In this document: piece by piece, positions 45,001 to 62,298 of the stretch
How positions within the stretch are numbered: the stretch's first letter is position 1
How the letters are laid out: every line of letters begins with the position of its first letter
Origin: Alcaligenaceae bacterium
Lineage (GTDB): Bacteria; Pseudomonadota; Gammaproteobacteria; Burkholderiales; Burkholderiaceae_B
Length of the DNA stretch: 64,000 bases
Assembly (NCBI GenBank): GCA_947379755.1
Contig: CANCOC010000003.1
Location: forward strand, 23,121-87,120
Direction of reading: 5' to 3'
The notes under the pieces: generated by a model
Databases searched by the model: none
Told to the model about the DNA's origin: nothing
The model's input: only the letters and a program-made list of their open reading frames with translations
Program-made: the position numbers and the translations under genes

Positions 45001-47680
45001 AGTGCAGACCTGTCGTTGGTTCGTCAAACAGGAACAGGCTGCCTTTTTTAGCAAGCTTGGTTGTCGAAATTCCGCTGCGTGCGGCCTCGGCCAGATGGCC
45101 CGCAAGTTTGAGTCGTTGAGCTTCACCACCGGAAAGTGTGGGAACAGGCTGGCCCAGCTTGACATACTCCAGTCCGACATCGGCCAGCGGCGCGAGTCCA
45201 AGCTGGACATCCCTGAGGCCCTTAAAAAACTCGAGTGCTTCCGATACTGTCATGTCGAGCACGGCATCGATTGAGGCGCGCTTGCCGAGGTGTTCAATTT
45301 CCACCTCGCGCACTTCAGGCCTGAAGCGTTTGCCATCGCAGTCTGGGCAACGAATATAAACGTCAGACAGGAATTGCATTTCCACGTGCTCAAAGCCGGT
45401 TCCACCACAGGTCGGGCAACGACCGTCTCCGCTGTTAAAGCTAAAGGTGCCAGGCGTATAGCCGCGTTCGCGTGCGACCGGAGCCTGGGCAAACAACTTG
45501 CGGATCGGATCAAAGGCACCTACATAACTGGCCGGGTTGGATCTGGCGGTCTTGCCAATTTGCGCCTGATTGACCATGACGACATCGGCCAGCTGCTCTG
45601 CACCCAGGATACGGTCAAAGGCACCAGGAGATTCTGTGGGTTTGCCCATGATCTTGAGCAGGCCTGGGTAGAGCACGTCCTGAATCAGTGTCGATTTGCC
45701 TGAACCCGAGACTCCCGTCACGCAAACGAGCCGACCCAGTGGAATTTCAATGGAGATATTTTTAATATTGTTTGCAGTGACGCCTTCCAGTAACAGGCGT
45801 GGCGTGCCAGGCAGGACTGGCAGCGGACGAGGCGCTTCGACCTTCATGCGCCCACCCATGTATTTGCCGGTGAGTGTTTCAGCATCTTTCAGCGCCTGCG
45901 GCGTGCCGTCGAACACGATGTAACCCCCACGCTCGCCGGGCCCCGGACCCACATCAATCACACGGTCGGCTGCGATCATTACCTGAGGGTCATGTTCAAC
46001 TACTACCAGTGTATTGCCGGCATCGCGCAATCGATGCATGACTTCGACTACACGATGGATGTCGCGCGGATGCAAACCAATCGACGGTTCGTCGAGAACA
46101 AAAAGCGTGTTGACGAGTGAGGTGCCCAGAGCGGTCGTCAGGTTGATTCGCTGGACTTCACCGCCAGATAATGTGCGGCTCTGACGGTCGAGCGTCAGAT
46201 AACCTAAACCAACATCACACAGGAACTTCAACCGGCCGCGTACTTCTGTCAGGACCAGATCCATTGCCGCATCCATTGCACCGGCAAATTTGATCGTCCC
46301 AAAAAAACTACTGAGCTGTACGATTGGTGTCAGCATCATGTCCTGGATAGTCTTACCTTCAATTCTCCAGAGCAAGGCGTCAGGCTTGAGGCGTGCGCCA
46401 TGACAGGTTGGGCAAGGTGTATAGCTGCGGTATTTGGACAACAGCACACGCACATGCATTTTGTAGGATTTCGTTTCGAGCCAGGTAAAGAAGCGTTGCA
46501 CGCCATACCACTGCGTCTTCCAGGCCTGATTGCCGCCTTTCCAGAGTGGATCTCCATCCAGCACCCACTCCTGGTGTTCGGGTGGAAGGTGTTTCCAGGG
46601 AGTATTGGTCGAGACGTTGGCCCGTTTGGCATACTTGAGGAGCTCTTCCTGGCAGTTCAAATAGCTCGGCGTCTGCCAGGGTTTGATTGCGCCTTGTTCG
46701 AGTGTTTTGTTTTCATCCGGAATAACCAGGCCAAAATCGATACCGATTACCCGGCCAAAGCCGCGACAGGCTTCACAGGCCCCGAGTGGCGAGTTAAATG
46801 AAAAGGAGCTCGGCAGTGGGTCGCTATAACTGATATTGCATTCGGCGCAGTGCAGTTTGTCGCTGAATTTCCATACCTGAGTGTCATTGCCATCAGCATC
46901 CAGGACGTGGATTGCGATCAGGCCGTTGCCCATCTTGAGCGCAATATCGAGGGCTTCGAGCACGCGTGAAGGTTCGGCACTTGAAAAACGGAACCGGTCC
47001 TGGATGACGCGCAGGGTCCGTAAGGCAGGTGCGATGGTGGCTGCTTTCTTTGAAGCCGTTTTTTTAGCGACAGGGGCAGGGCTGGTTGCATCATTGGCCG
47101 CGCTGCCTGAGGGCGTGGTCTGGTTTTCGTCTGCATGGACGCGGGTATAGCCCTGCTGGTCCAGAAAGCCTCGTACTTCCTCCTCGGTGAAACTGACGGG
47201 CACCTGTACCGGAAAGGTCACGACCAGCCGAGGGTCAGCCAGATCGGACGCACGTGTATTGATCGCAGCCAGAATCGAGGCGGTACTGTCACGGCATACC
47301 GCCTGTCCGCAGCCACGACAGAATAATTGAGCGCCACGCGCGAACAGAAGTTTCAGGTGGTCATTGAGCTCTGTCATCGTGCCAACCGTGCTGCGCGAGC
47401 TGCGCACCGGGTTGGTCTGATCAATCGCGATCGCCGGCAGGATGCCCTCTATCTTGTCGACCTGAGGTTTATCCATGCGATCAAGGAACTGACGGGCATA
47501 AGGGGAGAAGGTCTCGACGTACCGCCGCTGGCCTTCTGCATAAAGGGTGTCAAAGGCGAGTGAGCTTTTGCCCGAGCCGCTGACGCCCGTGATGACGGTT
47601 AATTCGCCCGTATTGAGGGTCAAATCGAGATTCTTGAGATTGTTCTGGCGCGCACCAGTAATGCGAATGATTGGGTTCAT
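42050..47680 (-). CDS. uvrA: Tandem-duplicated ('dimeric') excinuclease ABC subunit UvrA, about 1,876 aa
   Basis: Four Walker A (GVSGSGKSSLAFD, GVSGSGKSTLIQD, GVSGSGKSTLAFD, GVSGSGKSTLARE), four LSGGE(V/A)QR signatures and repeated CxxC zinc motifs. Start MNPIIRITGARQNNLKNLDL. Confidence 0.94.
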   Translation of the reverse strand: MNPIIRITGARQNNLKNLDLTLNTGELTVITGVSGSGKSSLAFDTLYAEGQRRYVETFSPYARQFLDRMDKPQVDKIEGILPAIAIDQTNPVRSSRSTVGTMTELNDHLKLLFARGAQLFCRGCGQAVCRDSTASILAAINTRASDLADPRLVVTFPVQVPVSFTEEEVRGFLDQQGYTRVHADENQTTPSGSAANDATSPAPVAKKTASKKAATIAPALRTLRVIQDRFRFSSAEPSRVLEALDIALKMGNGLIAIHVLDADGNDTQVWKFSDKLHCAECNISYSDPLPSSFSFNSPLGACEACRGFGRVIGIDFGLVIPDENKTLEQGAIKPWQTPSYLNCQEELLKYAKRANVSTNTPWKHLPPEHQEWVLDGDPLWKGGNQAWKTQWYGVQRFFTWLETKSYKMHVRVLLSKYRSYTPCPTCHGARLKPDALLWRIEGKTIQDMMLTPIVQLSSFFGTIKFAGAMDAAMDLVLTEVRGRLKFLCDVGLGYLTLDRQSRTLSGGEVQRINLTTALGTSLVNTLFVLDEPSIGLHPRDIHRVVEVMHRLRDAGNTLVVVEHDPQVMIAADRVIDVGPGPGERGGYIVFDGTPQALKDAETLTGKYMGGRMKVEAPRPLPVLPGTPRLLLEGVTANNIKNISIEIPLGRLVCVTGVSGSGKSTLIQDVLYPGLLKIMGKPTESPGAFDRILGAEQLADVVMVNQAQIGKTARSNPASYVGAFDPIRKLFAQAPVARERGYTPGTFSFNSGDGRCPTCGGTGFEHVEMQFLSDVYIRCPDCDGKRFRPEVREVEIEHLGKRASIDAVLDMTVSEALEFFKGLRDVQLGLAPLADVGLEYVKLGQPVPTLSGGEAQRLKLAGHLAEAARSGISTTKLAKKGSLFLFDEPTTGLHFDDVARLMRAFRKLLGAGHTLLIIEHNLDVIRAADWVIDLGPDGGDAGGELIVAGSPEDVMAHPTSYTGAALREYAVAMTPDAIGTSALLLGEPGKPEAGRSLQTVMKEKRRAATSIDILHAREHNLKNISVSIPHGKFTVITGVSGSGKSTLAFDILFNEGQRRYLESLNAYARAIVQPAGKPDVDAIFGIPPTVAIEQRTSRGGRKSTVATMTEIHHFLRLLYMKLGTQMCPTCQVSVEPQSADQIVARIMRDHKGHRIGLMSPLVTARKGFYTDLAKWAAGKGYTHLRVDDAFIGTAKWPRLDRFKEHNIELPVADLTVGSNNEAELREAVRSALEHGQGVMSIVWPLDNLHESMSAKLEQEHFSVKRACPSCGTSFPEPDPRMFSYNSKHGWCQGCFGTGLQLQGFDAEQTGEETAWNAWYEGETHVCTSCHGARLNPIARAVLWHDKSIAELAGLPVTDAHTFFTALVLKGRDAEIARDILSEIRGRLQFMQEVGLGYLALDRAAPTLSGGEAQRIRLAAQLGSNMQGVCYVLDEPTIGLHPRDNRILLGALSRLEKNGNTLVVVEHDDDTIRRAEHVIDIGPGAGIRGGRVVAQGTLKDLMEAPESTTGHYLRHPLIHPLQPRRPIVKDTPMITVKGAKLHNLRHIDAHFPIGRLSVVTGVSGSGKSTLAREVLLDNLHAAVAMRTDPVWHGCDAIEGWQQIDRVLEVDQTPIGKTPRSCPATYIGFWDDVRKQFAETNEARIRGWTAGRFSFNTGDGRCPLCEGQGMRTLEMSFLPDVKVPCDACNGARFNTDTLGVRMREKHAGEVLSMEVDDAIGYFAAHPRIRHPLQLMQDVGLGYLTLGQPSPTLSGGEAQRIKLVTELAKARMTEGVITTGRASRLPHTLYVLDEPTVGLSMADVEKLIRVLHRLVEAGNTVVVIEHNLDIIAEADWLLDLGPEGGTGGGKLVIEGTPEQVVAVRKRSHTGEVLHEFMNRE

Positions 47681-47780
47681 TTTGCAATCATAGAACGGCA
47701 ATGCTACTTAGGAGGCCGAAATGAGGTGAATGTCCGTATTGTTTTTAGGTTAATATAGTAGGTTCTACCGGAGATTTTTC

Positions 47781-48174: not shown

Positions 48175-49356
48175 ATGAAGTTTTGTACTGCAAAACTATT
48201 TTGGAAGCTGACGCTGGCTTCAGGTTTGATAGCAGGTTCATTCACCGTTCAGGCGCAACCGATCAAGGTGGGCTGGCTTTCGTCACTCACCGGCCCGCTC
48301 TCTGCCTCGGCAATTGCCGAAAACCAGGGTGTGGAGCTTGCCGTAGAGGAAATCAATGCCGCTGGCGGCATCCTGGGGCGCAAAATTGAACTCCTGACCC
48401 GTGATACGGCCGGCGATCCAACCAAGGCGGTGAACTTTGCGCAGCAACTGGCCTTCAGTGACAAGGTCAGTTTTGTGATTGGGCCGGTCAATTCTGGTGA
48501 GGGGCTGGCCACAACGCCGATGCTGGCGCGTGCAGGTGTGCCCAACATCATCATTGGTGCGATTGATGAACTGACTGACGCCAAGAAATATCCACGCGCT
48601 TTCCGCATGATCAACACCAATATGCAGTGGATCACCACGGCGAACAAGTATGCAATTGAAACGCTGAAAAAGCAGAAAGTTGCAGTCATTGCAGATACCT
48701 CAGGTTATGGCACTGCGAGTGCAAAATCTGCCATTGCCTTGCTTGAAAAAGCTGGCATCAAGCCCGTGTATTCTGTATTGATCGATGCCAACAAAACCGA
48801 TGTCATGGATGAGATGACAAAGGCGCGCAACGCAGGAGCGGACGTTGTCATGCCCTGGACCGCTGCAGCAGGATTGCTGGGCCGGCTGATCAATGCGCGC
48901 GGTGAAATGGGCTGGGATGTGCCGATCGTTGGACACCCTGCTCTGATGGCTGCACAGATTCGCAAACTGCTGAACAAGCCCGAGTACTGGGATAAAACCT
49001 ATGCGGCTGGCTATGTCAGCACGACCTATCTGCCTGATGGGAAGTTGCCGGTTGCGACACAGGGGCTGGTCGATAAAATCCGCCCGCGCCTGGGCGGAGG
49101 TGAGATCGACGTGACCTTCTGGTGGGTGGCTCTTGGCTACGATACGGTCAAAATGATTGAGCATGCAATTAAAAAAGCGGGTTCAACCGATCCAGCCGCG
49201 ATCCAGAAAGCAATGGAAACTACTTCCAACTATCCAGGTGTCTACGCAACGTATAGCTGGAGCGATACACAACGCGATGGTTTTCCTGATAGCGGCATGG
49301 TGATGAATACCGCCAATACCTTCAAGGACGGCAGCTTCAAGCTTGCTCCAAAATAA
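48175..49356 (+). CDS. Branched-chain amino-acid-type ABC transporter substrate-binding protein
   Basis: IKVGWLSSLTGPLSASAIAENQGVELAVEEINAAGGILGRKIELLTRDT with signal peptide. Confidence 0.92.
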   Translation: MKFCTAKLFWKLTLASGLIAGSFTVQAQPIKVGWLSSLTGPLSASAIAENQGVELAVEEINAAGGILGRKIELLTRDTAGDPTKAVNFAQQLAFSDKVSFVIGPVNSGEGLATTPMLARAGVPNIIIGAIDELTDAKKYPRAFRMINTNMQWITTANKYAIETLKKQKVAVIADTSGYGTASAKSAIALLEKAGIKPVYSVLIDANKTDVMDEMTKARNAGADVVMPWTAAAGLLGRLINARGEMGWDVPIVGHPALMAAQIRKLLNKPEYWDKTYAAGYVSTTYLPDGKLPVATQGLVDKIRPRLGGGEIDVTFWWVALGYDTVKMIEHAIKKAGSTDPAAIQKAMETTSNYPGVYATYSWSDTQRDGFPDSGMVMNTANTFKDGSFKLAPK

Positions 49357-49366
49357 GGCGTAAAAA

Positions 49367-50227
49367 ATGCTGACAGTCCTTGTAACGGGTCTGGCCATTG
49401 GCATGCTGTATGGTGCCGTGGCTCTTGTTTATAACGTGATGTTTTCGACCTCCAAGGTACTGTCGGTCACGACGGGTCACATCTCAATGCTGGGCGGCGT
49501 ATTTGGCGCCTGGTTCATGATCAATCTGCAAATGCCCTGGTACGTAGGCCTGCTGGGTGCAATTCTGGTGGGCGCGGCCTTTGGCTGGATCACTGATGTG
49601 CTGGCTATTCGACGTGTGCTGGCTCGTAGTGACGAACACCTCTGGCTGTTGAGTACCCTTGCTGTAGCCACCATGGTGCAACAGGGTGTCGGCTTGTGGT
49701 GGGGCACTGAGCCCACGCCCTTTCCTCGCCTGATTCCTCAGGAATTTGGTGCCGGCATGGCAGACCAGAAATTCTGGCTGCCCATTATTCTGGCTGTTCT
49801 GATGGCGATTGGACTGGAGTTGTTTTATCGCCGGACGCTGTACGGAAAACTATTCCTTGCGATGTCCGAAGATGCATTTGCCGCCCGTGCGCGTGGGGTA
49901 TCAACTGATCGAATTCGCTCGATGTCCTACGTTTTGTCCGGGGCGCTGGGCGGTCTGGCTGGCTTTGCCGCCGGGCAACTGACCTTCGCGTATTTTGCCT
50001 TGGGGCTGACGCTCACGCTCAACGGCTTTATCGCGCTGGCAGTCGGAGGGTTAGGAAGCAATATTGGTGCGCTCGTAGGAGGGGCCTTGCTTGGCCTGCT
50101 CAATGCCTATGCGACCTATTGGTTCGGAGGGGAATATCAGCAGACGATTTCGGTCGGCTTGTTGATGGTGGTGCTGCTCCTCAAGCCAGAAGGCTTGTTT
50201 GGTTCGAAACGCGTCCGTCCGGTTTAA
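49367..50227 (+). CDS. LivH-type branched-chain ABC transporter permease
   Basis: LARSDEHLWLLSTLA...SYVLSGALGGLAGFAAGQLTF; hydrophobic, directly after the SBP. Confidence 0.9.
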   Translation: MLTVLVTGLAIGMLYGAVALVYNVMFSTSKVLSVTTGHISMLGGVFGAWFMINLQMPWYVGLLGAILVGAAFGWITDVLAIRRVLARSDEHLWLLSTLAVATMVQQGVGLWWGTEPTPFPRLIPQEFGAGMADQKFWLPIILAVLMAIGLELFYRRTLYGKLFLAMSEDAFAARARGVSTDRIRSMSYVLSGALGGLAGFAAGQLTFAYFALGLTLTLNGFIALAVGGLGSNIGALVGGALLGLLNAYATYWFGGEYQQTISVGLLMVVLLLKPEGLFGSKRVRPV

Positions 50228-50247
50228 GAGCGGAGCTGAGAAAAAAC

Positions 50248-52014
50248 ATGCATACAACTTCGAATCACGCCCGCACGCTCACCTTGATCCTGGCTGCCGC
50301 AGCCGCCCTGACGTTACCTTTCTGGGCGAGTGATCAATATCAGTTGCATCTGGCCGCTCTCATTGCGGTGTATTGGATATTGATTTCCGGACTCAATATC
50401 GTTGTCGGATTTACAGGTCAGCTTTCGATCGGACATGTCGGCTTATTGTCAATTGGTGCTTATGGCTTTTGTATTCTCGCAGGCAAGATGGAATTGAATC
50501 CATATCTCGCCCTTGCGATATCGGGAGGTCTGGGAGGCATCTGTGGCCTGGCTCTGGGCTTACCCTCGTTGCGATTGCCAGGATTTTATTTTGCCATGGC
50601 AACGATGGCTTTTGCACTGATCGTCAATGAAATTATTCTGGCCCAGGTGGACCTGACCGGAGGCGGGATCGGACTGGTCGGTCCTTTATTTACGGCACCT
50701 TTTGATACACCTTCAGGATTTTATTACCTGGTGGCGCTGCTTGCTGGCTTTGCAACGTGGCTGACCTGGAATATTGCCCGTAGCATGTGGGGCAAGGGTC
50801 TGATTGCGATTCGTGATAATCCGGTTACGGCACAGGCTGTCGGTGTGCCGGTCTTTCGGGCCAAACTGGTTGCTTTCGTCTTCAGTGGTGTGCTGGCGGG
50901 TGTGTCAGGCGGTTTATTTGCCTCCTTGCAAAGCTACATCACGCCAGACACCTTCGTGTTTGAATTGAGTATGTTCTTCTTTGTCTGCATCATCATCGGA
51001 GGGCGCGGCAGTATTGTCGGACCGTTCCTCGGCACGGTCGTGCTGACCGCTTTGCCTGAGATGGTAGCTTCGCTGGCCAAGCTGGGTAACTTTTTTTATG
51101 GTCTGCTTCTGCTTGTTGTTGTGCTCGTGATTCCGGAAGGGATTGGCAGAATGCTTCAGCTGATTTACGAACGGATCAAGCCACGTGAGATTGAGTCCAT
51201 ACCGATTCAGCCTGACGTCAAGGGTCTGATTCAAACGCTCAGTGATACGGTATCAGAGGGTGGACCGATTCAGGTTGAGCACATCAGCAAACATTTTGGT
51301 GGCGTGGCGGCACTCGATGACGTGTCACTGACACTTGCCCCGGGTGAAATCCATGGGTTGATTGGCCCGAATGGCAGCGGCAAGACCACGATGCTGAATT
51401 TACTTTCCGGGTATTACGAACCTTCATCAGGAGACATGCTGTATCGCGGCCAGGATTTTGGCGCTTCAACCGTGCAACAACGCGCAAGGATGGGGATCGC
51501 CCGTACCTTTCAAAAGCCCCGGCTCTTGCCTGAGCTGACTGTACTTGAGAACGCCATGGTAGGTGCCTGGTCGGAATCGACTTCAGGGTTTATGGCTTCT
51601 GCCTTTGCTTTGCCAGGCGTACGTATCGAGGATCGATTTTTACGTGAGCGTGCCGCCCAGTTACTGGTGGGTGTTGGTCTGGGTGGAGTCATGCATCGTC
51701 GAGCCAATCTGCTGGATCATGCACAGCAACGATTCCTGGAAATTGCGCGAGGCCTCGCACTGCGGCCCAGATTTATTTTGCTGGACGAGCCCGCCGGTGG
51801 CTTGACCAGTGTCGAAATTGAACATCTGGGTGCAGTGATTCGTGCGATCAGTCTGTCGGGTATTGGGGTGTTGCTCGTCGAGCACCATACCGACTTTGTA
51901 TTCCGTGTCTGCGACAAGGTGACGGCCTTGAATGTGGGTCGCATGATCCAGCATGGCACGTCAGATCAAGTCCGTCATGACCCGGAAGTGATTCGTGTCT
52001 ACCTCGGAGCCTGA
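50248..52014 (+). CDS. LivM-LivG fusion: ABC permease plus ATP-binding domain
   Basis: N-terminal LivM (GLNIVVGFTGQLSIGHVGLLSIGAYGF), C-terminal ATPase (GLIGPNGSGKTTMLNLLSGYY; FILLDEPAGGLTSVEI). Start M at 50248 preferred over 50119. Confidence 0.92.
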   Translation: MHTTSNHARTLTLILAAAAALTLPFWASDQYQLHLAALIAVYWILISGLNIVVGFTGQLSIGHVGLLSIGAYGFCILAGKMELNPYLALAISGGLGGICGLALGLPSLRLPGFYFAMATMAFALIVNEIILAQVDLTGGGIGLVGPLFTAPFDTPSGFYYLVALLAGFATWLTWNIARSMWGKGLIAIRDNPVTAQAVGVPVFRAKLVAFVFSGVLAGVSGGLFASLQSYITPDTFVFELSMFFFVCIIIGGRGSIVGPFLGTVVLTALPEMVASLAKLGNFFYGLLLLVVVLVIPEGIGRMLQLIYERIKPREIESIPIQPDVKGLIQTLSDTVSEGGPIQVEHISKHFGGVAALDDVSLTLAPGEIHGLIGPNGSGKTTMLNLLSGYYEPSSGDMLYRGQDFGASTVQQRARMGIARTFQKPRLLPELTVLENAMVGAWSESTSGFMASAFALPGVRIEDRFLRERAAQLLVGVGLGGVMHRRANLLDHAQQRFLEIARGLALRPRFILLDEPAGGLTSVEIEHLGAVIRAISLSGIGVLLVEHHTDFVFRVCDKVTALNVGRMIQHGTSDQVRHDPEVIRVYLGA

Positions 52015-52781
52015 TGATGACTGAGAAATCTTCCCGACCCGGGCAAGTGCTGTTGTCCGTTCGTGACTTGCACGTTGCCTACGGCAAGGCAGAAGTGGTG
52101 CATGGCTTGTCGCTTGATGTCCGCGCGGGTGAGTTTGTAGTGGTGCTCGGTCGCAATGGTGCGGGCAAGAGCACGGTGATGCATGCCATCTCGGGATTAG
52201 TCCCCAAGCGCAGTGGCACGGTCAGCTTTGAGGGTCAAGATCTGACACAGGCGAGTGCCAGACAGATTGTGCAGTCCGGCATTATTCAAGTGCTTGAAGG
52301 CCATCGTGTCTTTCAGACCTTGACCGTTGAGGACAACCTGATGATCGGTACCTATGCAAAGACTCCACGTGGAGACCGCAGCAAGCTCGAGGCGATCTAT
52401 GACTTGTTCCCAGAGCTTGCAGAACGTAAACAACAGATGGCCTCACGTTTGTCAGGTGGTCAGCAGCAGATTCTTGCTGTGGCGCAGGGCGTGATTGGAG
52501 AGCCCAAACTATTGATCTTGGACGAACCTTCAGGCGGGTTGGCTCCCATTGTTGTCGATAGAATTTTGTCCGTCGCGTCTGCGCTCTGCGCCAAGGGCCT
52601 GGCTATTTTGCTGGTTGAGCAGCTTGTTGAAAAAGCACTCAAGCACGCACATTTTGCATTTTTGATGGAAACCGGTCGTGTCGTGGCTGCAGAGTCGTCG
52701 GCGGAGATTGGTCGAGGTGATTTATTACACAGGGTTTTTCTTGGCGGTGGTGAACCGATGACAGAAATGGAGAGTAAATAA
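52014..52781 (+). CDS. LivF-type ABC transporter ATP-binding protein
   Basis: VLGRNGAGKSTVMHAISGL; LSGGQQQILAVAQGVIGEPKLLILDEPSGGLAP. Confidence 0.92.
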   Translation: MMTEKSSRPGQVLLSVRDLHVAYGKAEVVHGLSLDVRAGEFVVVLGRNGAGKSTVMHAISGLVPKRSGTVSFEGQDLTQASARQIVQSGIIQVLEGHRVFQTLTVEDNLMIGTYAKTPRGDRSKLEAIYDLFPELAERKQQMASRLSGGQQQILAVAQGVIGEPKLLILDEPSGGLAPIVVDRILSVASALCAKGLAILLVEQLVEKALKHAHFAFLMETGRVVAAESSAEIGRGDLLHRVFLGGGEPMTEMESK

Positions 52782-53836
52782 TGAGTAGTTCAAAAAGATG
52801 GATCAATCGCCCTGAGGGTTCAAACTGGGGTGATTTTGGTCCGGATGATCAGCGCGGCCGGATTAATTTGCTGACCCCTGAAAAAGTGATGCAGGGCATC
52901 GCCGAAGTCAAAGAGGGCAAGCCGTTTTGTCTGAGCTTGCCGCTTGATTACCCCGGTGGCAACTTGCTCAATCCGCGTCGTCATCCGCCCGTGATTCGTC
53001 CGACCTTGCGCAACGGTCGTCCCAACATGAATTACAAGCTTTTTTCGGATAATAACCAGCATAGCGACGTCGTCAGCGATGATCTGGTCGTGCTGCATCT
53101 GCAGTATTCGACGCAGTGGGACAGTCTGGCCCATGTGGGTTCGCTCTTTGATGCAAACGGTGATGGCATTCCCGAAGCGGTCTATTACAACGGCTATCGC
53201 GCAGGCGAACATATCATCGGTCCGACAGAAGGCAAGGATGCAGGCGTGCCAGAGCCGGGTGACCAGAGAACGACTTCGAACGCCACTGCTCTTGGCATCC
53301 AGAACATGGCTGAAGCCTGCGTGCAGGGTCGTGGGGTGATGGTTGATTTTCATGCACACTTTGGCAATAAAAAAGTGGTCGTGGATTACGACATCATGAT
53401 GCGTGTGCTTGAGCAGGACAAAGTTGAAATTGAAAAAGGCGATATGGTGGCCTTGCATACTGGCTTTGCCCAGATGCTGCTCGACATGAAGAAAAAACCT
53501 GACCTCAGTATCCTGGATAACAGTTGTGCCGCGCTGGATGGTCGCGATTCAAAATTGCTGAATTGGATTACGGACAGCGGTCTGGTTGTGCTCATGGCGG
53601 ATAACTACGCCGTTGAAGCACACCCTGCGACCAAACATGTCGGCTGCTGCGCTACGCTGCCCCTGCATGAGCACTGCCTGTTCAAGCTTGGCATTCATCT
53701 GGGCGAAATGTTTTATCTGACTGAACTGGCTCAATGGTTGCGTAAGAATGGTCGCAATCGTTTTCTACTGACGGCTCCCCCTTTGCGCCTGCCTGGTGCA
53801 GTCGGTTCACCTTCAACCGCCGTTGCAACGGTTTAA
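52781..53836 (+). CDS. Cyclase family protein (isatin hydrolase/kynurenine formamidase-like fold)
   Basis: LQYSTQWDSLAHVGSLFDANGDG corresponds to the metal-binding region of the cyclase family; VDFHAHFGNKKVVVDYDIMMRV. Confidence 0.82.
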   Translation: MSSSKRWINRPEGSNWGDFGPDDQRGRINLLTPEKVMQGIAEVKEGKPFCLSLPLDYPGGNLLNPRRHPPVIRPTLRNGRPNMNYKLFSDNNQHSDVVSDDLVVLHLQYSTQWDSLAHVGSLFDANGDGIPEAVYYNGYRAGEHIIGPTEGKDAGVPEPGDQRTTSNATALGIQNMAEACVQGRGVMVDFHAHFGNKKVVVDYDIMMRVLEQDKVEIEKGDMVALHTGFAQMLLDMKKKPDLSILDNSCAALDGRDSKLLNWITDSGLVVLMADNYAVEAHPATKHVGCCATLPLHEHCLFKLGIHLGEMFYLTELAQWLRKNGRNRFLLTAPPLRLPGAVGSPSTAVATV

Positions 53837-53841
53837 GTGCC

Positions 53842-54612
53842 ATGCGACAGGTCTCTGACAGCAGTGCTGCGCAGAAGGTCTGTCGCATTCTTAAAATTTT
53901 ATCAACACCTCAGCCCTTGCGTCTGACGGATATTGCGCTTGCCTCGGGTGTCAATAAAGCAACCGCATTGCGCCTGCTGGAAGATATGGCAGAGGAAGGC
54001 TTTGTCTGCCGCGACCAAGTCAACAAGCGTTATTCGCTCGGTGATGAGGCCATCACACTTGGTATCGCCATGCATGGCCGTGATCATATCCGTGATCGTG
54101 CAAGGCCAGCCATGTTGCGTCTGGCTGATCTCTGTGGAGACACGGTTTTACTTTCTGTACGCAGTGGTTGTGATGCGGTGTGTATTGATCGTGAGTTTGG
54201 CAGCTATCCGATCCGTGCCAATTACCTCGATCTGGGTATGCGGCGTCCGCTCGGCGTGGGGGCGGGCAGTCTGGCGCTGCTGGCCTGGTTGCCCGACGAG
54301 GAGGTCGATGCAGTGCTTGAACTTAACCGGGTCACGCTCGCTGCACGCTATCCAAGGATCAGTGTCGCGATGCTCAAAGAAGAGGTGGTGCGTTCAAGGG
54401 AACGTGGCTACACCATGTTGCTGGAAGTTGTGGTGGAACAGATGGGCGGGATTGCGGTGGCGGTCATGGGGCGTGATGGACGCCCCGTTGCGGCAGTGAG
54501 TGTCGCTGCGATGACCGATCGCATACTGAACCGGCAGGACATGCTTGTTCCTGCGCTTAAAAAAGTGGCTCAAGAGCTCTCTAATAATTTAATTCCTTTG
54601 GGGAAGACATGA
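53842..54612 (+). CDS. IclR family transcriptional regulator
   Basis: VCRILKILSTPQPLRLTDIALASGVNKATALRLLEDMAEEGFVCRD HTH plus IclR effector domain (GAGSLALLAWLPDEEVDAVL). Confidence 0.92.
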   Translation: MRQVSDSSAAQKVCRILKILSTPQPLRLTDIALASGVNKATALRLLEDMAEEGFVCRDQVNKRYSLGDEAITLGIAMHGRDHIRDRARPAMLRLADLCGDTVLLSVRSGCDAVCIDREFGSYPIRANYLDLGMRRPLGVGAGSLALLAWLPDEEVDAVLELNRVTLAARYPRISVAMLKEEVVRSRERGYTMLLEVVVEQMGGIAVAVMGRDGRPVAAVSVAAMTDRILNRQDMLVPALKKVAQELSNNLIPLGKT

Positions 54613-55964
54613 AAGACGTGATTAGAATTGGTTCAGGTGCTGCATGGTGGGGTGACCGGGTTGAACCCGCTGCTCTCAATGCAGAAAAAGGAGATCTTGA
54701 TTACTTGTGTTTCGAGACAATGGCTGAAGCAACTGTCTCGGCTGCGCAAGTGCGTGCGCGACGTGACCCATCATTTCCTGGCTACGACACATATCTTGAC
54801 GACCGTATGCGTGCGGTGCTGCCGCATTGCATGAAACGCGGCACCAAGATTATCTCTAATCAGGGCTGGATTAATCCGGATGCAGCGGCAAAGCGTGTCG
54901 TGCACTGGTTACAGGAGTTTGGTTTTACAGGCGTAAAAGTCGCGTCTGTGAATGGCAGTCTTATTACTGAACATGTGCTCGAACTAACGGATACGATTCT
55001 TGAAAATGGTTTGCCGACATCAACGCTGACTTCGAACCTGATTTCGGCCGAAGTTTATCAGGGTGCTGAACCGATCGTTGATGCGCTCAAGGCAGGTGCC
55101 CAGATTGTGATCACCGGTCGCGTAGCCGATCCGTCTATTTTTATGGCTCCGATGATGTATGAATTCGAATGGGACCCGCTTGATCATGTCAAACTTGGTC
55201 AGGGCAATGGTCTGGGGCATTTGCTGGAGTGCGGGGCACAAGTCACCGGCGGATACTTCTCCGATCCTGGATTTAAAGACGTGCCTGATCCATGGAATTT
55301 CGGTTTTCCGATTGCTGAAGTGCATCGCGATGGCAGTGCCGTCATCACTAAAGTCGCCGGTACAGGCGGCCAGGTCACACTGCAGACGGTTAAAGAACAA
55401 ATGCTTTATGAGGTGCATGATCCTGCGAATTATCTGACCCCCGATGTGGTGGTCGATTTCACCACGGCACAGATTGAACAGGTTGGGCCTGATCGTGTGC
55501 GCGTCAGCCATATTGGAGGCAAGCCCCGCACGCCGACCCTGAAGGTTTCGATTGGCTGCACCGAAGGGTTTATTGGTGAAGACATGTTTTTCTATGCTGG
55601 TCCCGGGGCACTGCGTCGTGCTGAACTGGCAAAAAAAGTTCTTGAGGAACGCTTCAAAATCGTTAATTTGCAGGCTGAAGAATTCCGCATTGATTATCTC
55701 GGACTCAATGCGATTCATGGAGCGGCTACCCCTGTCGATGCACCTGAGCCCTATGAAATTGCAGTCCGAGTGGCTGCGCGCACCAAGACGCGCGAAGAAG
55801 CTGCCAAGATCGGGCGCGAGGTCGATGGTATGGCCGTTTCGGGTATCGCCCATACGGGCAAGCGTGTCCCGCATCAGGACCGCACCCGTGAAGTCATCGG
55901 CGTGTGGTCTTCCCTCGTGCCACGCGAGCGTGTGACACCGTCTATCAACTATTTTGTGAGCTGA
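54609..55964 (+). CDS. AtuA family protein (acyclic terpene utilisation, DUF1446)
   Basis: VIRIGSGAAWWGDRVEPAALNAEKGDLDYLCFETMAEATVSAAQ; ITGRVADPSIFMAPMMYEFEWDPLDHVKLGQGNGLGHLLECGAQVTGGYFSDPG. Confidence 0.87.
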   Translation: MKDVIRIGSGAAWWGDRVEPAALNAEKGDLDYLCFETMAEATVSAAQVRARRDPSFPGYDTYLDDRMRAVLPHCMKRGTKIISNQGWINPDAAAKRVVHWLQEFGFTGVKVASVNGSLITEHVLELTDTILENGLPTSTLTSNLISAEVYQGAEPIVDALKAGAQIVITGRVADPSIFMAPMMYEFEWDPLDHVKLGQGNGLGHLLECGAQVTGGYFSDPGFKDVPDPWNFGFPIAEVHRDGSAVITKVAGTGGQVTLQTVKEQMLYEVHDPANYLTPDVVVDFTTAQIEQVGPDRVRVSHIGGKPRTPTLKVSIGCTEGFIGEDMFFYAGPGALRRAELAKKVLEERFKIVNLQAEEFRIDYLGLNAIHGAATPVDAPEPYEIAVRVAARTKTREEAAKIGREVDGMAVSGIAHTGKRVPHQDRTREVIGVWSSLVPRERVTPSINYFVS

Positions 55965-55967
55965 CCC

Positions 55968-56330
55968 ATGAAAGTCAAACTTCAACACGTTGCACATGCA
56001 CGCTCTGGTGACAAAGGTGACACCTCGAACATTGCCGTATTTGCCTACACACCGGAACTTTACACGCTGCTGAAAGATCAGCTGACGGCCGAACGCTTCA
56101 AGGCGTTTTATGCCGGGGCGATCAAAGGACCCGTGACCCGGTATGAGGTCGATAACCTGGATGCAATGAATTTTGTTGCTCAGGGTGCGCTCGGTGGTGG
56201 CGTGTCGCGTAGCCTGTGTCTGGACAACTACGGCAAGGCCTTGTCTGCAGCTGTGCTGGGCTTTGAAATTGAAGTGCCAGAGTCATTGCGCTCGCATTTA
56301 CGCGGACAGCATTTACTGAGCGCAAGCTAG
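55968..56330 (+). CDS. AtuA-associated C-terminal domain protein (stand-alone, 120 aa)
   Basis: LQHVAHARSGDKGDTSNIAVFAYTPELY...DNLDAMNFVAQGALGGGVSRSLCLDNYGKALSAAVLGFEIEVP. Confidence 0.82.
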   Translation: MKVKLQHVAHARSGDKGDTSNIAVFAYTPELYTLLKDQLTAERFKAFYAGAIKGPVTRYEVDNLDAMNFVAQGALGGGVSRSLCLDNYGKALSAAVLGFEIEVPESLRSHLRGQHLLSAS

Positions 56331-56338
56331 TCGGTCAC

Positions 56339-57433
56339 TTGAGGCACAATATGAAAAAGCACACGATTCTGATTGCAGGGGCAAGTGGCGTGGTGGGTGC
56401 CGCGGCACTTGAGCATTTTGCTTCACTTCCTGACTGGGAGGTGATCGCGCTCTCACGTCGTCCGGTGGCCTTGCCAGAGGGTGCCCGTCATATCAGTGTG
56501 GATCTGACTGATCTGGCTGCCTGCCATCAGGCGGCTATCAACCTCTCGCACGTGACGCATGTGCTGTTTGCTGCGTTGTATGAATTGCCCGAGCTGGTGG
56601 CAGGATGGCGTGATCCACGCCAGATGGCCGTCAATGAAGCGATGTTGCGCAATTTGCTCGATGCACTTGAACCGCAGGCAAAAGGCTTGCGTCACCTGAC
56701 GTTCATGCAGGGAACCAAGGCGTACGGAGGACATGTCGAGCCCGCACCTGTGCCTGCCAAGGAACGATGGCCACGCCATGCTCACCAGAACTTTTACTGG
56801 TTGCAGGAAGACCTGATGCGCGCCCGGCAAAAACAGGCAGCCTGGACCTTCACAATTCTGCGACCCCAGATTGTCTTTGGATATGCTGTTTCAAGCCCGA
56901 TGAATATTGTTGCCGCGATCGGTGCTTATGCCGCAGTTTTGCGTGAGCAAGGCCAGCCTCTGCATTTCCCAGGGGGGGGGCGTTATATCAATGGTGCAAG
57001 TGACAGCCGGATGATCGCCCAGGCAGCGGAGTTTGCTGCGACCCATGAAATTGCTGCCAATGAAACCTATAACGTTGTCAATGGCGATGCCTTGGTCTGG
57101 CCGGATATCTGGGGTTCGATTGCCGCACGGTTTGGCATGGAGACGGGCGAGCATGTGCCCTTATGCATGACCGAGATGATGCCGGCCTGTGAAGATGTCT
57201 GGCAAGTGATTGTCAAAAAGAATCAGCTTAAATCTTTGACTTTGGAGCAACTGGTTGCCAGTTCGTGGCAATTTACCGATCGTGCGCTGGGGTATGGCGC
57301 GGACCATCCGGCGGATTCGGTCCTGAGTCCGATTAAATTGCGCCAGCATGGTTTCAATACTTGTTATGACACCGAAGACGCATTGCATGACTGGCTGGAG
57401 TTAATGCAAAAAAATCGTCTGTTACCGCGCTAA
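56339..57433 (+). CDS. NAD(P)-dependent SDR, PRISE (progesterone 5-beta-reductase/iridoid synthase)-like
   Basis: ILIAGASGVVGAAALEHF Rossmann motif; MQGTKAYGGH...NFYWLQEDLM resembles the PRISE GTKHY.../NFYYxxED motifs. Confidence 0.78.
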   Translation: MRHNMKKHTILIAGASGVVGAAALEHFASLPDWEVIALSRRPVALPEGARHISVDLTDLAACHQAAINLSHVTHVLFAALYELPELVAGWRDPRQMAVNEAMLRNLLDALEPQAKGLRHLTFMQGTKAYGGHVEPAPVPAKERWPRHAHQNFYWLQEDLMRARQKQAAWTFTILRPQIVFGYAVSSPMNIVAAIGAYAAVLREQGQPLHFPGGGRYINGASDSRMIAQAAEFAATHEIAANETYNVVNGDALVWPDIWGSIAARFGMETGEHVPLCMTEMMPACEDVWQVIVKKNQLKSLTLEQLVASSWQFTDRALGYGADHPADSVLSPIKLRQHGFNTCYDTEDALHDWLELMQKNRLLPR

Positions 57434-57497: not shown

Positions 57498-58487
57498 ATG
57501 GCATCACTTAAACAAACGTTGCGTGTGCTGGGTCAGTTCAGCATGGTACTTGCTGGACTGACTGCAGCGTACGCCTCTGCACAGACGACCTTTGCAGATC
57601 GACCCATCCGTATTGTTGTGCCTTATCCGGCGGGTGGTACGACCGACTTGCTGGCGCGCGCAGTCGGACCGCGACTCGGTGAACGAATCGGTCGTACGGT
57701 CGTGATTGAAAACAAACCGGGAGCCGGTGGCGTGATTGGCGCGGCGCAAGTCGCCAAGTCACCAGCTGACGGTCATACGCTGATTTTTGCCAGCATTGCA
57801 AGTCACGGAATCATTCCGGCCTTGCAGGTGCCTCCACCCTATGATCCGATCAAGGATTTTGCGCCAATAACGATGGTTGCAAGCACTCCCAATGTCTTGC
57901 TCGCAAATGTGAATCTGCCTGCGCAAAATGTCAAAGAACTGATTGCTCTGGCTAAAGCAAAGCCCGGCACGATCAATTTTGGTTCGACTAGTCATGGTGG
58001 CTCACCGCACATGAGTGGTGAGCTGTTTAAAACACTGGCTGGCATTGACATCGTCCATGTGCCCTATAAAGGCGGTTCGCCGATGCTGATTGATCTGATG
58101 GGTGGTCAGATTGCAATTGGTTTTGATAACCTACCTTCGTCGATGGCTTACATTCGTGCGGGAAAGGTGCGCGCGCTGGCAGTGACCACCACCAAACGCT
58201 GGCCGGGGGCACCAGAGATTCCAACAATGATCGAGGCAGGTGTGCCTGGTTACGATGTTTCTGCCTGGTTTGGTTTGCTCGCGCCAGCTGGCACGCCGCA
58301 ACCCTTGATCGACGAACTCAGCCGTCATCTGATTGCTGTCTTGCATTCGCCAGAGCTTGAAAAACAGTTCTTTGAACTGGGTGCGCAACCTGTGGGTGAC
58401 ACGCCTGAAGAATTTGCGCGTTTTATCGCAGAAGAGGGCGCCAAGTGGAGCAAGGTTGCACGCACCAACAATATCAAGCTGGAGTAG
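57498..58487 (+). CDS. Tripartite tricarboxylate transporter (Bug) substrate-binding protein
   Basis: IRIVVPYPAGGTTDLLARAVGPRLGERIGRTVVIENKPGAGGVIGAAQVAKSPADGHT. Confidence 0.92.
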   Translation: MASLKQTLRVLGQFSMVLAGLTAAYASAQTTFADRPIRIVVPYPAGGTTDLLARAVGPRLGERIGRTVVIENKPGAGGVIGAAQVAKSPADGHTLIFASIASHGIIPALQVPPPYDPIKDFAPITMVASTPNVLLANVNLPAQNVKELIALAKAKPGTINFGSTSHGGSPHMSGELFKTLAGIDIVHVPYKGGSPMLIDLMGGQIAIGFDNLPSSMAYIRAGKVRALAVTTTKRWPGAPEIPTMIEAGVPGYDVSAWFGLLAPAGTPQPLIDELSRHLIAVLHSPELEKQFFELGAQPVGDTPEEFARFIAEEGAKWSKVARTNNIKLE

Positions 58488-58575
58488 TTCACAGCTTTTG
58501 CACCTCAGATAGTCTGTCCAGGGCGCGCGACATCGGCGCCATTCTCTTTGCATTGTTTTCGCAGGAATATAGAAT

Positions 58576-59718
58576 TTGAAGCACGCTTACATTACCGGGG
58601 TGGGCAATACTGCCTTTGGTCGCCTCGAAGGGCACAGTACGCTCGATCTGATGGCTGCAGCCGCCAGGCAGGCACTCGACTGCGCGCAGCTTAAACGCAC
58701 CGGGATTGACGGCGTGCTGTGCGGCTACTCGACGACCATGCCACATCTGATGCTGTCGACTTTATTCTGTGAACGCTTTTCGCTGCGTCCAGACTATGCG
58801 CACAGTGTGCAGCTAGGCGGCGCAACGGGTGCTGCGATGTTGATGCTGGCACGCGAATTGGTTCAGAGCGGTCGTTGTAAAAATATTCTGGTGGTGGCTG
58901 GCGAAAACCGCCTGAGCGGCCAGACACGTGACAGCTCAATCCAGACGCTGGCGCAGGTAGGACATGCAGATTTTGAAGTGCCAAACGGGGCCTCGGTCCC
59001 AGCATATTACGGCTTGATGGCTTCACGTTATATGCATGAAACGGGTGTGACTAGCCAAGACCTGGCCGAGTTCGCCGTGCTCATGCGCAATAATGCGATC
59101 CGTCACCCGGACGCACACCTCACGACTCCGATCAGCATTGCGGAGGTTCTGGCTTCCAAACCGATTGCTGAGCCACTTCACCTGATGGATTGCTGTCCGA
59201 TTTCAGATGGAGCGATGGCCTTGATTGTCTCCTCCCAGGCGCCAGAGGGCGTTCGGGTCAGAATGGCTGGCGCGGGTCAGGCCCATTTGCACCAGCACCT
59301 GACCGCTATGCATGACGTGATGAATTGTGGTGCTGCGGTGGCTGCTGCCAGTGCGTTCAGGCAAGCGGGGCTGCAGGTGTCGGATATTGACTATCTGGGT
59401 ATTTACGATTCGTTCACCATCACGCTGCTGATGCTGCTCGAAGAAATCGGCTTTGCAAGACGTGGGCAGGCGGCGAACCGTTTGCGTCAGGGAGACTTTG
59501 CACAGCAAGGCGTTTTGCCGCTCAATACCCATGGTGGTTTATTGTCTTTTGGGCACTGCGGTGTGGCAGGCGGGATGGCGCATGCAGTCGAAGCCTGGAG
59601 GCAGTTTGCCCACCAGGCCGGTCCGCGGCAGGTCAAGACTCCGACACATGCCTTTATTCATGCCGATGGTGGTGTGATGTCCTCACATGTCAGCCTGATT
59701 TTGTCGAAGGAGGCTTGA
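58576..59718 (+). CDS. Thiolase-fold protein (SCP2/Ltp2-like), apparent loss of catalytic Cys; TTG start
   Basis: AYITGVGNTAFGRLEG; SVQLGGATGAAML where thiolases have VxxxCxSG; NTHGGLLSFGHCGVAGG. Confidence 0.85.
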   Translation: MKHAYITGVGNTAFGRLEGHSTLDLMAAAARQALDCAQLKRTGIDGVLCGYSTTMPHLMLSTLFCERFSLRPDYAHSVQLGGATGAAMLMLARELVQSGRCKNILVVAGENRLSGQTRDSSIQTLAQVGHADFEVPNGASVPAYYGLMASRYMHETGVTSQDLAEFAVLMRNNAIRHPDAHLTTPISIAEVLASKPIAEPLHLMDCCPISDGAMALIVSSQAPEGVRVRMAGAGQAHLHQHLTAMHDVMNCGAAVAAASAFRQAGLQVSDIDYLGIYDSFTITLLMLLEEIGFARRGQAANRLRQGDFAQQGVLPLNTHGGLLSFGHCGVAGGMAHAVEAWRQFAHQAGPRQVKTPTHAFIHADGGVMSSHVSLILSKEA

Positions 59719-59721
59719 GCC

Positions 59722-60120
59722 ATGACAGTCAAACATATTCCAGCCACGCCTGGATATTCACTTGCTCAACCCTATGTTGACGGTTTGTTGCATTGCCTGA
59801 TTCGTTTTCAGACATGTGGTGCCTGTGGCCGTGCTCAAACGCTGGCTCATGATGCTTGTCAGCATTGCGGTGCTGAGCAATTGAGCTGGTCTGATTCTGC
59901 GGGTCTTGGTACGGTGCACGCAGTGACCGTGGTTGGCCGTGCGCCGTCGGAGGCTTTTCGTCCACTTGCACCCTACACACTGGTGATTGTGACCCTCGAT
60001 GAAGGTGCGCGGGTGATGGGGCACGCATCGCCAGGGATCAAAATTGGTGATCGCGTCGTTGCTGGATTTTTTGATCATCTGGGGCAGACGCTCATCAGAT
60101 TTGAAGTTGCCCCTGACTGA
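59722..60120 (+). CDS. Zn-ribbon OB-fold (DUF35) protein
   Basis: CGACGRAQTLAHDACQHCG zinc ribbon, OB-fold C-terminus; adjacent to the thiolase-like gene. Confidence 0.87.
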   Translation: MTVKHIPATPGYSLAQPYVDGLLHCLIRFQTCGACGRAQTLAHDACQHCGAEQLSWSDSAGLGTVHAVTVVGRAPSEAFRPLAPYTLVIVTLDEGARVMGHASPGIKIGDRVVAGFFDHLGQTLIRFEVAPD

Positions 60121-60204: not shown

Positions 60205-62298
60205 ATGTCTGACCTGCTTGAGTCTGCTTTAAATCCCCGTACTGTCGCCATCATTGGCGCTTCTGAAAATATCCACAAGATTGGTGGACGTCCGATTTAT
60301 TACATGCAGCGAGCCGGTTTTCGTGGCACGATTTATCCGATCAATCCCTCGCGCACGGAGGTACAGGGACTTAAGAGTTATGCCTCGCTCGCACAGTTGC
60401 CAGAAACCCCTGAACTGGTGCTGATCGTAGTGGCTGGTGACAAGGCGGTCGAGGCCGTTGAGCAATGTGCCGCTATGGGCGTGCGATCGGTCGTGGTGAT
60501 CGCCTCGGGCTTTGGTGAGGTCGATGAGGCGGGTCGTCGCACGCAGCAACGGATGACGGATGCTGCACGTGCAACAGGGATGCGTATCTACGGCCCCAAT
60601 ACGCATGGACTGGCAAACTTTGGCACAGGTGCGATTGCTGGTTTTTCGACGATGTTCATTGAATGCCCTCCCCAGGACGGACCGATCGCCGTGCTCAGTC
60701 AGAGTGGTGGAATGAGTGCCATGGTGTATGGTCTGTTGCGCCAGAAAGGTCTGGGCGTTCGCCATGTTCATGCGACAGGCAACGAAGCTGATGTAACCGT
60801 CTCGGACATGGCCTGGGCCATTGCACATGATCCAGAAATCAAGTTAATGTTGCTTTATCTTGAAAATATTGCCAACCCTGAGATGCTGGCACGTACTGCA
60901 GAATATGCACGCAGCCGTGATCTGCCGATTGTGGCCGTCAAGGCAGGTCGTTCGGCCAGCGGCCAGAAGGCCGCGTCGACGCATACCGGGGCAATGGCCA
61001 ACGAAGATCGTGTAGTGGATGCGTTCTTCAGGAAACACGGTATTTTGCGTGTGCGAGATCCCCATGCCCAGGCCCTGGCTGCCGAGGCGTATCTGAAGGG
61101 CTGGCGCCCGGCGGGTAATCACCTGGTGGTGATCAGTAATTCAGGCGCAAGTTGCGTGATGGGAGCCGATGCGGCTGAAGACAACGGACTAGAGATGGCG
61201 GTCCTCAGCGAGGTGACGCAACAGGCTGTCGCCAAGTCTTTGCCAGGCTTTGCGACGACCACCAATCCGATTGATATCACTGCGGCCTTGCTTTCGAATA
61301 GCGGTTTGTTCAGCGAAGTCTTGCCCGCTGTTGCCACGGATCCTGCTGCCGATATGTTTTTTATCAATATTCCCGTAGCGGGTGCCGGGTACGATGTACA
61401 GGCTTTTGCACGTGATACGGCCGCGTTTGAAACCCTGACAGGCAAGCCCGTTGCTGTTGCAGCGTGGCAGGCGTCCGTAGCCGAACCATTTCGCCAGGCC
61501 GGTGTGGCCACCTTTGAAAATGAGGGACAGGCCGTTGGCGTCCTGGGGCAGCTTGCTGCACACACCGCCTTGTTGCGCCAGCCATTGACGATGTGGCCGG
61601 AATTACCTGCAGTGACGGTCCCTGCAGGATCGCAGCAATACTGCAACGAAGCTGAGTCGCTCAAACTGTTGTCCGATCACGGTGTGCCAGTTGTCGGTCA
61701 CATCCTGTGCCAGACGGCGGCTCAAGTCAAAACCGCTGTGCATGCCCTGGGTGGCGCGGTCGTGATCAAGGCATGCTCTGCAGAGGTGCCGCACAAGACC
61801 GAGTTTGGTCTGGTGGCACTCAACATTCAGGATGCGGATCAGGCAGTGAAGGTTTTTGAATCCCAGACCAAGCGGCTCAAAGAAATGAAGGTCGGCGCAG
61901 CCGGTGTCATCGTCGCCTCGATGCACCGTGGCCGCCATGAATTGATGGTGGGGGCACGCTTTGATCCTGTTTTCGGACCTGTGGTGCTTGTGGGCGCGGG
62001 CGGAAAATATGTCGAAGCCCTGAAAGATTACGCAGTGTTGCTGCCGCCCTTTAGTGTCGGGGAGGTCGAAACTGCCCTGCAAAGTTTGCGTCTGGCCCCC
62101 ATACTCAAAGGGGTGCGTGGTGATGCACCAATGGATGTGGTGGCATTCGCAGAGGTTGCCGTTGCGGTCGGTAAAATTGTCATGTCCGCAGGAGCGTCCA
62201 TTGCCTCGCTGGATCTGAATCCAGTTATGGTGGGTTTTGCTGGTGAGGGGGCTCTGGTTGTCGATGCCCTGCTGGAACGGGGGTGTAACAAAGGGTAA
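60205..62298 (+). CDS. Acetate--CoA ligase-family (NDP-forming) acyl-CoA synthetase
   Basis: LNPRTVAIIGASENIHKIGGRPIYYMQRAGF; STHTGAMANEDRVVDAFFRKHGILRV; C-terminal ATP-grasp region (VVIKACSAEVPHKTEFGLVAL). Confidence 0.9.
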   Translation: MSDLLESALNPRTVAIIGASENIHKIGGRPIYYMQRAGFRGTIYPINPSRTEVQGLKSYASLAQLPETPELVLIVVAGDKAVEAVEQCAAMGVRSVVVIASGFGEVDEAGRRTQQRMTDAARATGMRIYGPNTHGLANFGTGAIAGFSTMFIECPPQDGPIAVLSQSGGMSAMVYGLLRQKGLGVRHVHATGNEADVTVSDMAWAIAHDPEIKLMLLYLENIANPEMLARTAEYARSRDLPIVAVKAGRSASGQKAASTHTGAMANEDRVVDAFFRKHGILRVRDPHAQALAAEAYLKGWRPAGNHLVVISNSGASCVMGADAAEDNGLEMAVLSEVTQQAVAKSLPGFATTTNPIDITAALLSNSGLFSEVLPAVATDPAADMFFINIPVAGAGYDVQAFARDTAAFETLTGKPVAVAAWQASVAEPFRQAGVATFENEGQAVGVLGQLAAHTALLRQPLTMWPELPAVTVPAGSQQYCNEAESLKLLSDHGVPVVGHILCQTAAQVKTAVHALGGAVVIKACSAEVPHKTEFGLVALNIQDADQAVKVFESQTKRLKEMKVGAAGVIVASMHRGRHELMVGARFDPVFGPVVLVGAGGKYVEALKDYAVLLPPFSVGEVETALQSLRLAPILKGVRGDAPMDVVAFAEVAVAVGKIVMSAGASIASLDLNPVMVGFAGEGALVVDALLERGCNKG

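Follow-up and report, generated by a model that had tools for sequence, protein, structure and literature searches.

The closest described systems to the gene pair analyzed here are two retro-aldolases in which a thiolase-fold protein without the nucleophilic cysteine is joined by a DUF35 domain, i.e., Ltp2–ChsH2 of Thermomonospora curvata (PDB 6OK1) and Sal–Shy, the bile-acid side-chain aldolase of Comamonas testosteroni (PDB 9MYR, PMC12329534). The catalytic base is a tyrosine in both enzymes (Tyr302 in Sal, Tyr294 in Ltp2), whereas the second catalytic residue differs: Ltp2 uses Tyr344 as the catalytic acid, at a position where Sal has Gln352, and the second essential residue of Sal is Cys304, with the C304S variant being inactive (PMC12329534). 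The zinc site is of the C4 type in ChsH2 and of the C3H1 type in Shy (PMC12329534). Reports on the importance of DUF35 diverge as well—the domain is apparently not important for the activities of Ltp2–ChsH1–ChsH2 (PMC11321319), yet the Comamonas TA441 aldolase cannot do without it (PMC12502768). TbSLP, the SCP2-thiolase-like protein of Trypanosoma brucei, has itself been proposed to be an aldolase (PMC12329534). Finally, the ibuprofen pathway of Rhizorhabdus wittichii MPO218 starts with a CoA ligase, and propionyl-CoA is released at the step assigned to a retro-aldolase (PMC9195938).

The window, i.e., the whole stretch of 64,000 nucleotides analyzed here, belongs to contig C3, whose end it reaches, in the 3.37-Mb genome of a freshwater beta-proteobacterium. 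We read a gene pair in it as a predicted retro-aldolase that cleaves a β-hydroxyacyl-CoA, with a probability of roughly 0.7. This reading is supported by the replacement of cysteine by glycine throughout the clade, the base tyrosine, the structural match to Sal, the phylogenetic tree and the hydratase genes of relatives. On the same grounds, the core of the first-pass annotation—a non-thiolase and probable β-hydroxyacyl-CoA retro-aldolase—is supported, whereas its arguments from the C-terminal motif and the DUF35 partner are not diagnostic, and Sal is a closer precedent than Ltp2, which it cited.

The gene pair and its operon

Both open reading frames of the pair are present as first described, on the + strand and 3 nt apart. 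The thiolase-like frame matches Pfam Thiolase_C_1 (169 bits, cut-off 28) and Thiolase_N (38 bits); the following one matches OB_ChsH2_C (49 bits), with zf-ChsH2 staying just below threshold (19.4 vs a cut-off of 23.2). The closest named relatives are MAGs, e.g., Sheuella and other Alcaligenaceae-type bacteria. The features of the pair are:

58576-59718, + strand: Cys-less thiolase-fold protein of 380 aa (TTG start, AGGA upstream at 58563-58566), the probable catalytic subunit
58819-58821, + strand: codon of Gly82, where thiolases have their nucleophilic Cys
59404-59415, + strand: YDSF motif (Tyr277, Asp278, Ser279, Phe280); Tyr277 corresponds to Sal Tyr302 and Ltp2 Tyr294, Ser279 to Sal Cys304 and Ltp2 His296
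59554-59556, + strand: codon of His327, the GHP His of thiolases (here in GHCG), which aligns with Ltp2 Tyr344 and Sal Gln352; candidate general acid
59659-59673, + strand: HADGG, a C-terminal glycine loop that probably corresponds to the oxyanion region around Gly391 of Sal
59706-59713, + strand: GAAGGAGG, a strong ribosome-binding site that serves the DUF35 gene and lies within the 3' end of the thiolase-like one
59722-60120, + strand: DUF35 protein of 132 aa, with a C4 zinc ribbon (C32, C35, C46, C49) and an OB fold; probable partner subunit

The two genes are closely linked in other genomes, too. In each of 32 long-flank loci, which do not count the window's own, a DUF35 gene is located no more than 8 kb from the thiolase-like gene, and in 31 of them the distance is about 120 nt or less; the spacing in relatives is often 3 nt or an ATGA overlap. 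The four zinc cysteines are invariant in 28 sequences, and the best PDB match of the window's DUF35 protein is CtShy DUF35, the partner of Sal. As an argument for an aldolase, which the first-pass annotation had made of it, the partner is not diagnostic: five of the six Thiolase_C_1 genes in the same genome have a DUF35 neighbour, including one for a Cys-containing thiolase (contig C103), and DUF35 as proof of aldolase function was rejected on this basis. A model of the two proteins as one fused chain, with the stop codon read through, reached a pTM of 0.79 with well-folded domains; it provides no interface measure and was set aside as docking evidence. Three more Cys-less thiolase-fold proteins are encoded on contigs C74, C5 and C6 of this genome (loci L001, L002 and L004 of G000), with YDAF, YDSF and YDNF motifs and each with a DUF35 neighbour of its own. 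The Cys-less thiolase-fold proteins of the 3.4-Mb genome are probably a small family of aldolases.

The other genes of the operon, given in their order and with the pair falling between the TctC-type protein and the CoA ligase, are:

48175-52781, + strand: branched-chain-type ABC importer (binding protein, permeases, ATPases)
52781-53836, + strand: cyclase-family (PF04199) protein, a probable metal hydrolase
53842-54612, + strand: IclR-type regulator
54609-55964, + strand: AtuA family protein, with a weak but unique PDB match, 9erq (deposited as citramalate lyase subunit A)
55968-56330, + strand: AtuA_ferredoxin domain protein, likely the second subunit of the AtuA enzyme
56339-57433, + strand: PRISE-type reductase (progesterone 5-beta-reductase / iridoid synthase relative)
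57498-58487, + strand: TctC/Bug periplasmic binding protein
60205-62298, + strand: ADP-forming (NDP-forming) acyl-CoA ligase, with 4-hydroxybutyrate- and 3-hydroxypropionate-CoA ligase as nearest solved relatives

Within 8 kb of the pair, a CoA ligase gene occurs in at least 24 of the 32 loci, TctC in at least 22 and AtuA in at least 17—all lower bounds, since contig ends and frameshifted copies are found among these loci. Among the orthologue loci, only the nearest relatives (L027-L029) have the ABC importer directly upstream. Across 201 genomes of the family, a close thiolase-like orthologue is present in 25, AtuA in 31 and both in 17 (Fisher p 8e-11, a value overstated because the genomes are related). 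In a genome of the same genus (G127, locus L094), the same site holds cyclase, AtuA, AtuA_ferredoxin and TctC genes followed by the same Dpp operon; the IclR, PRISE, thiolase-like/DUF35 and CoA ligase genes are absent from the site, and no copy of the thiolase-like gene was found in G127 at E 1e-60. Given this arrangement, the five genes (IclR, PRISE, the pair and the ligase) look like one functional unit gained or lost together, with AtuA also occurring without them.

Some observations concern the neighbours themselves. The PRISE reductase, missing at L094 like the pair, is a bacterial relative of plant progesterone 5-beta-reductase and iridoid synthase. AtuA and the separate AtuA_ferredoxin gene (54609-56330 in the window, 9146-10498 in L094) form a self-contained and highly conserved module, with 65-96% identity among the compared loci. 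The name acyclic terpene utilisation may be misleading for this AtuA branch, whose sole PDB hit is the citramalate lyase subunit A deposit; citramalate lyase splits a β-hydroxy acid. The literature searched on AtuA function and citramalate lyase yielded nothing naming the reaction of AtuA, and papers on fungal aromatic metabolism gave no lead. No steroid-ring genes were seen in the operon, in which only the PRISE reductase recalls steroids; a steroid pathway was rejected for this reason, and the substrate of the pair is apparently a non-steroid acid. Upstream, on the minus strand, the window also encodes an 1883-aa protein (42050-47701) in which a UvrA interaction domain and a UvrA DNA-binding domain occur along with several P-loop stretches; it is apparently a UvrA of double length, with two copies joined in a single chain.

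Loss of the nucleophilic cysteine, fold and phylogeny

The claim that glycine takes the place of the nucleophilic cysteine was borne out by alignment with Cys-containing thiolases: Gly82, within SVQLGGATGAA (residues 77-87 of the 380-aa protein), aligns with their nucleophile. A conserved cysteine at this position, which the first-pass annotation had named as a refutation of its reading, was sought and is absent from the window protein and its orthologues. All 27 window-clade rows of the tree (25 rows from other loci have 56-86% identity, and L059 has 51%) carry Gly-Gly-Ala at this site, so that Gly82 is neither chance nor a sequencing error. Plasmid-borne relatives keep both glycines even where identity falls to 47%. 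In the same genome, the true thiolases encoded on contigs C103 and C77 retain the cysteine together with an HDCF motif; where SCP2-type thiolases show these hallmarks, the window protein has Gly82 and YDSF, while their GHP-type histidine is present as His327 and could serve another chemistry. The first-pass annotation had also pointed to a missing cysteine in HADGGVMSS (residues 362-370). This motif is uninformative on its own, because Cys-containing SCP2-type thiolases of the same genome have no cysteine there either (HNLGG in L005, FNMGG in L006).

The AlphaFold2 model of the protein has a mean pLDDT of 95.1 and a pTM of 0.94. In a Foldseek search against the PDB, the DUF35-linked aldolase Sal–Shy (9myr_A) ranked first with an E value of 6.6e-38; TbSLP and 4U4E came next, and Ltp2 took rank 20. 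The fold is not decisive alone, since the model's TM-score to acetoacetyl-CoA thiolase 6esq (0.94) exceeds that to Sal (0.89), and true DUF35-linked thiolases score at least as high.

A maximum-likelihood tree separates nine thiolase-side rows from 44 Cys-less rows (among them Sal, Ltp2 and the window clade) with a support of 100/99. The cysteine and HDxF are found in eight of the nine thiolase-side rows, the exception being 4yzo, which is thiolase-like and without that cysteine. Every Cys-less row on the aldolase side has glycine at the nucleophile position and keeps the tyrosine of the YDxF/Y motif, i.e., Tyr277 of the window protein. When the motif columns were masked, the split returned with the same support (100/99) in a 37-row tree that excludes 4yzo and 4bi9. 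The branching order of the window clade relative to the other Cys-less groups is not settled (AU test, p 0.21), and the branches leading to Sal and Ltp2 are long.

Proposed reaction and rival explanations

Conservation of Tyr277, Asp278, His327 and the glycine loops extends to relatives of 47-51% identity, and His327 is invariant in a 46-sequence alignment. The tyrosine is constant but the third motif position is variable, other Cys-less clades having YDCF, YDAF or YDNF. Neither known catalytic acid is present: Ser279 stands in place of Sal Cys304, and His327 in place of Ltp2 Tyr344. As C304S abolishes Sal activity, the window protein could not work exactly like Sal, and Ser279 is hardly the acid; His327, at the position of the Ltp2 acid, is the best candidate. 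The difference of this site from those of both Sal and Ltp2 leaves Tyr277 and His327 as the natural candidate acid-base pair, as far as residue positions can tell.

By analogy with Sal and Ltp2, two thiolase-fold subunits would form the core of the complex, flanked by two DUF35 subunits. A β-hydroxyacyl-CoA would bind with its CoA moiety in the thiolase CoA tunnel, and Tyr277 of YDSF would take the proton of the β-hydroxyl group; the bond between C-alpha and C-beta would then break, releasing an aldehyde or ketone, and the acyl-CoA enolate would be protonated, with His327 as the proposed acid. Glycine in place of cysteine would make space for the hydroxyl group, and thiolysis via residue 82 would be excluded. 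In the window operon, the substrate would probably derive from an imported hydroxy acid, converted to a β-hydroxyacyl-CoA by the adjacent ADP-forming ligase. We consider the ligase the likely source because no hydratase gene is nearby (neither a MaoC nor an enoyl-CoA hydratase gene was found in the operon or on its contig), and its nearest PDB relatives, both hydroxy-acid ligases, make direct activation of the imported acid plausible.

In relatives that share 47-51% identity and the YDSF and GHxG motifs, hydratase genes adjoin the pair, and the β-hydroxyacyl-CoA is probably formed there by means of these MaoC or enoyl-CoA hydratases. The gene order is ligase, unknown, MaoC, thiolase-like, DUF35 in Paracoccaceae La6; ECH, thiolase-like, DUF35, two MaoC-annotated genes, ligase in Roseovarius; and IclR, thiolase-like, DUF35, unknown, MaoC, ECH in Azospirillum. 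Aldehyde dehydrogenase genes lie near the pair on two relatives' plasmids. Adjoining the catalytic MaoC gene, three loci (L106 9232-9609, L108 11545-11925, L109 11592-11972) encode proteins of about 127 aa without a Pfam match, one of them annotated as MaoC; by comparison with ChsH1–ChsH2, each may be the non-catalytic subunit of a hydratase made of two chains. In a separate case (L107), the pair and a CoA ligase are found at 49% identity on a plasmid of the actinobacterium Cnuibacter physcomitrellae, which suggests horizontal spread between phyla.

Other activities were weighed against the retro-aldolase reading. Aldol reactions are reversible, and PhlABC and the HMG-CoA synthase complex are DUF35/thiolase-fold bond builders, so the same active site might run in reverse and form a C–C bond (aldol or Claisen type) by joining an acyl-CoA enolate to an aldehyde or ketone. 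The neighbours—importers, IclR-type regulators, CoA ligases, acyl-CoA dehydrogenases and aldehyde dehydrogenases—constitute a catabolic set, however, and make this direction unlikely. About the same small chance is given to a decarboxylase or a β-ketoacyl-CoA hydrolase (retro-Claisen), in which the retained His327 and an enolate-stabilising pocket would act in the absence of a cysteine nucleophile. TbSLP, a near structural match, does decarboxylate malonyl-CoA, albeit at only 0.005 per second, but Sal has no such decarboxylase activity (PMC12329534); moreover, the retro-aldolase base tyrosine is present in every row of the clade, and hydratases adjoin the pair in relatives.

The loss of the cysteine could mean a loss of catalysis, leaving a non-catalytic subunit that would serve the CoA ligase or the AtuA enzyme as a scaffold or for binding. 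We regard this as very improbable in view of the conserved tyrosine, aspartate, histidine and glycine loops, and because 8 of the 32 loci show no CoA ligase, and 15 show no AtuA, within 8 kb, some of these loci being cut by contig ends or holding frameshifted copies. Least probable of all is an active thiolase with a relocated nucleophile, for which Cys328 of GHCG, adjoining His327, would be the obvious residue: position 328 is Cys or Ser across orthologues, i.e., not a conserved nucleophile, and a cysteine elsewhere was rejected in that role.

The retro-aldolase reading can be extended, tentatively and with the odds rather against it, to a distinct class of thiolase-fold retro-aldolases with Tyr277 as base, His327 as acid and an inert Ser279; such enzymes would act on CoA esters of hydroxy acids activated directly by a dedicated ADP-forming ligase, with no dehydrogenase or hydratase step needed in the window operon. 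Public records list the proteins of the clade as thiolases; if they are aldolases, these annotations mispredict both the reaction and its products, which would include an aldehyde or ketone instead of a shortened acyl-CoA. In that case, steroid and ibuprofen chemistry would be extended to further acids used by freshwater, marine and soil bacteria, and the acid residue would have been provided in a third way within the thiolase fold.

Comparison with described aldolases and thiolases

Sal–Shy DUF35 is the best structural and second-best sequence match of the window protein. Like the latter, Sal has glycine at the nucleophile position, an essential tyrosine in YDxx and a DUF35 partner; its motif reads YDCY, with the essential Cys304 and with Gln352, where the window protein has YDSF and His327. 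The DUF35 domain of Shy is fused to a MaoC hydratase and binds zinc through C3H1, whereas that of the window is free-standing and of the C4 type, with no hydratase nearby. The hydratase-beside-pair layout of the more distant relatives does resemble Sal–Shy and Ltp2–ChsH1H2.

Ltp2–ChsH2 DUF35 shares with the window pair a Cys-less thiolase fold, the base tyrosine in YDxF and a C4 DUF35 domain, but Ltp2 has YDHF and the acid Tyr344 against Ser279 and His327. Ltp2, the precedent cited in the first-pass annotation, was rejected as the nearest model: Sal and TbSLP rank higher in the Foldseek search. The second catalytic residue of both Sal and Ltp2 is replaced here. IpfD/IpfE of the ibuprofen pathway, the product of two thiolase genes, was likened to the pair by description rather than sequence, and its substrate is an aromatic dihydrodiol-CoA.

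Among the next-best structure matches, both Cys-less, 4U4E (a putative thiolase of Sphaerobacter thermophilus) shares YDSF and the GHP-type histidine with the window protein, while TbSLP has YDCF and no associated DUF35 domain. BbsAB, the benzoylsuccinyl-CoA thiolase (7PXP), and the archaeal acetoacetyl-CoA thiolase (6ESQ) combine a thiolase fold with DUF35 as the window pair does; both are described as thiolases, and 6ESQ retains, unlike the window protein, the nucleophilic cysteine and HDCF. We therefore class the pair as a Sal/Ltp2-like variant and not as a steroid aldolase, because structure, key residues and partner agree with these enzymes, whereas the known acid residue and the steroid context belong to Sal and Ltp2 only.
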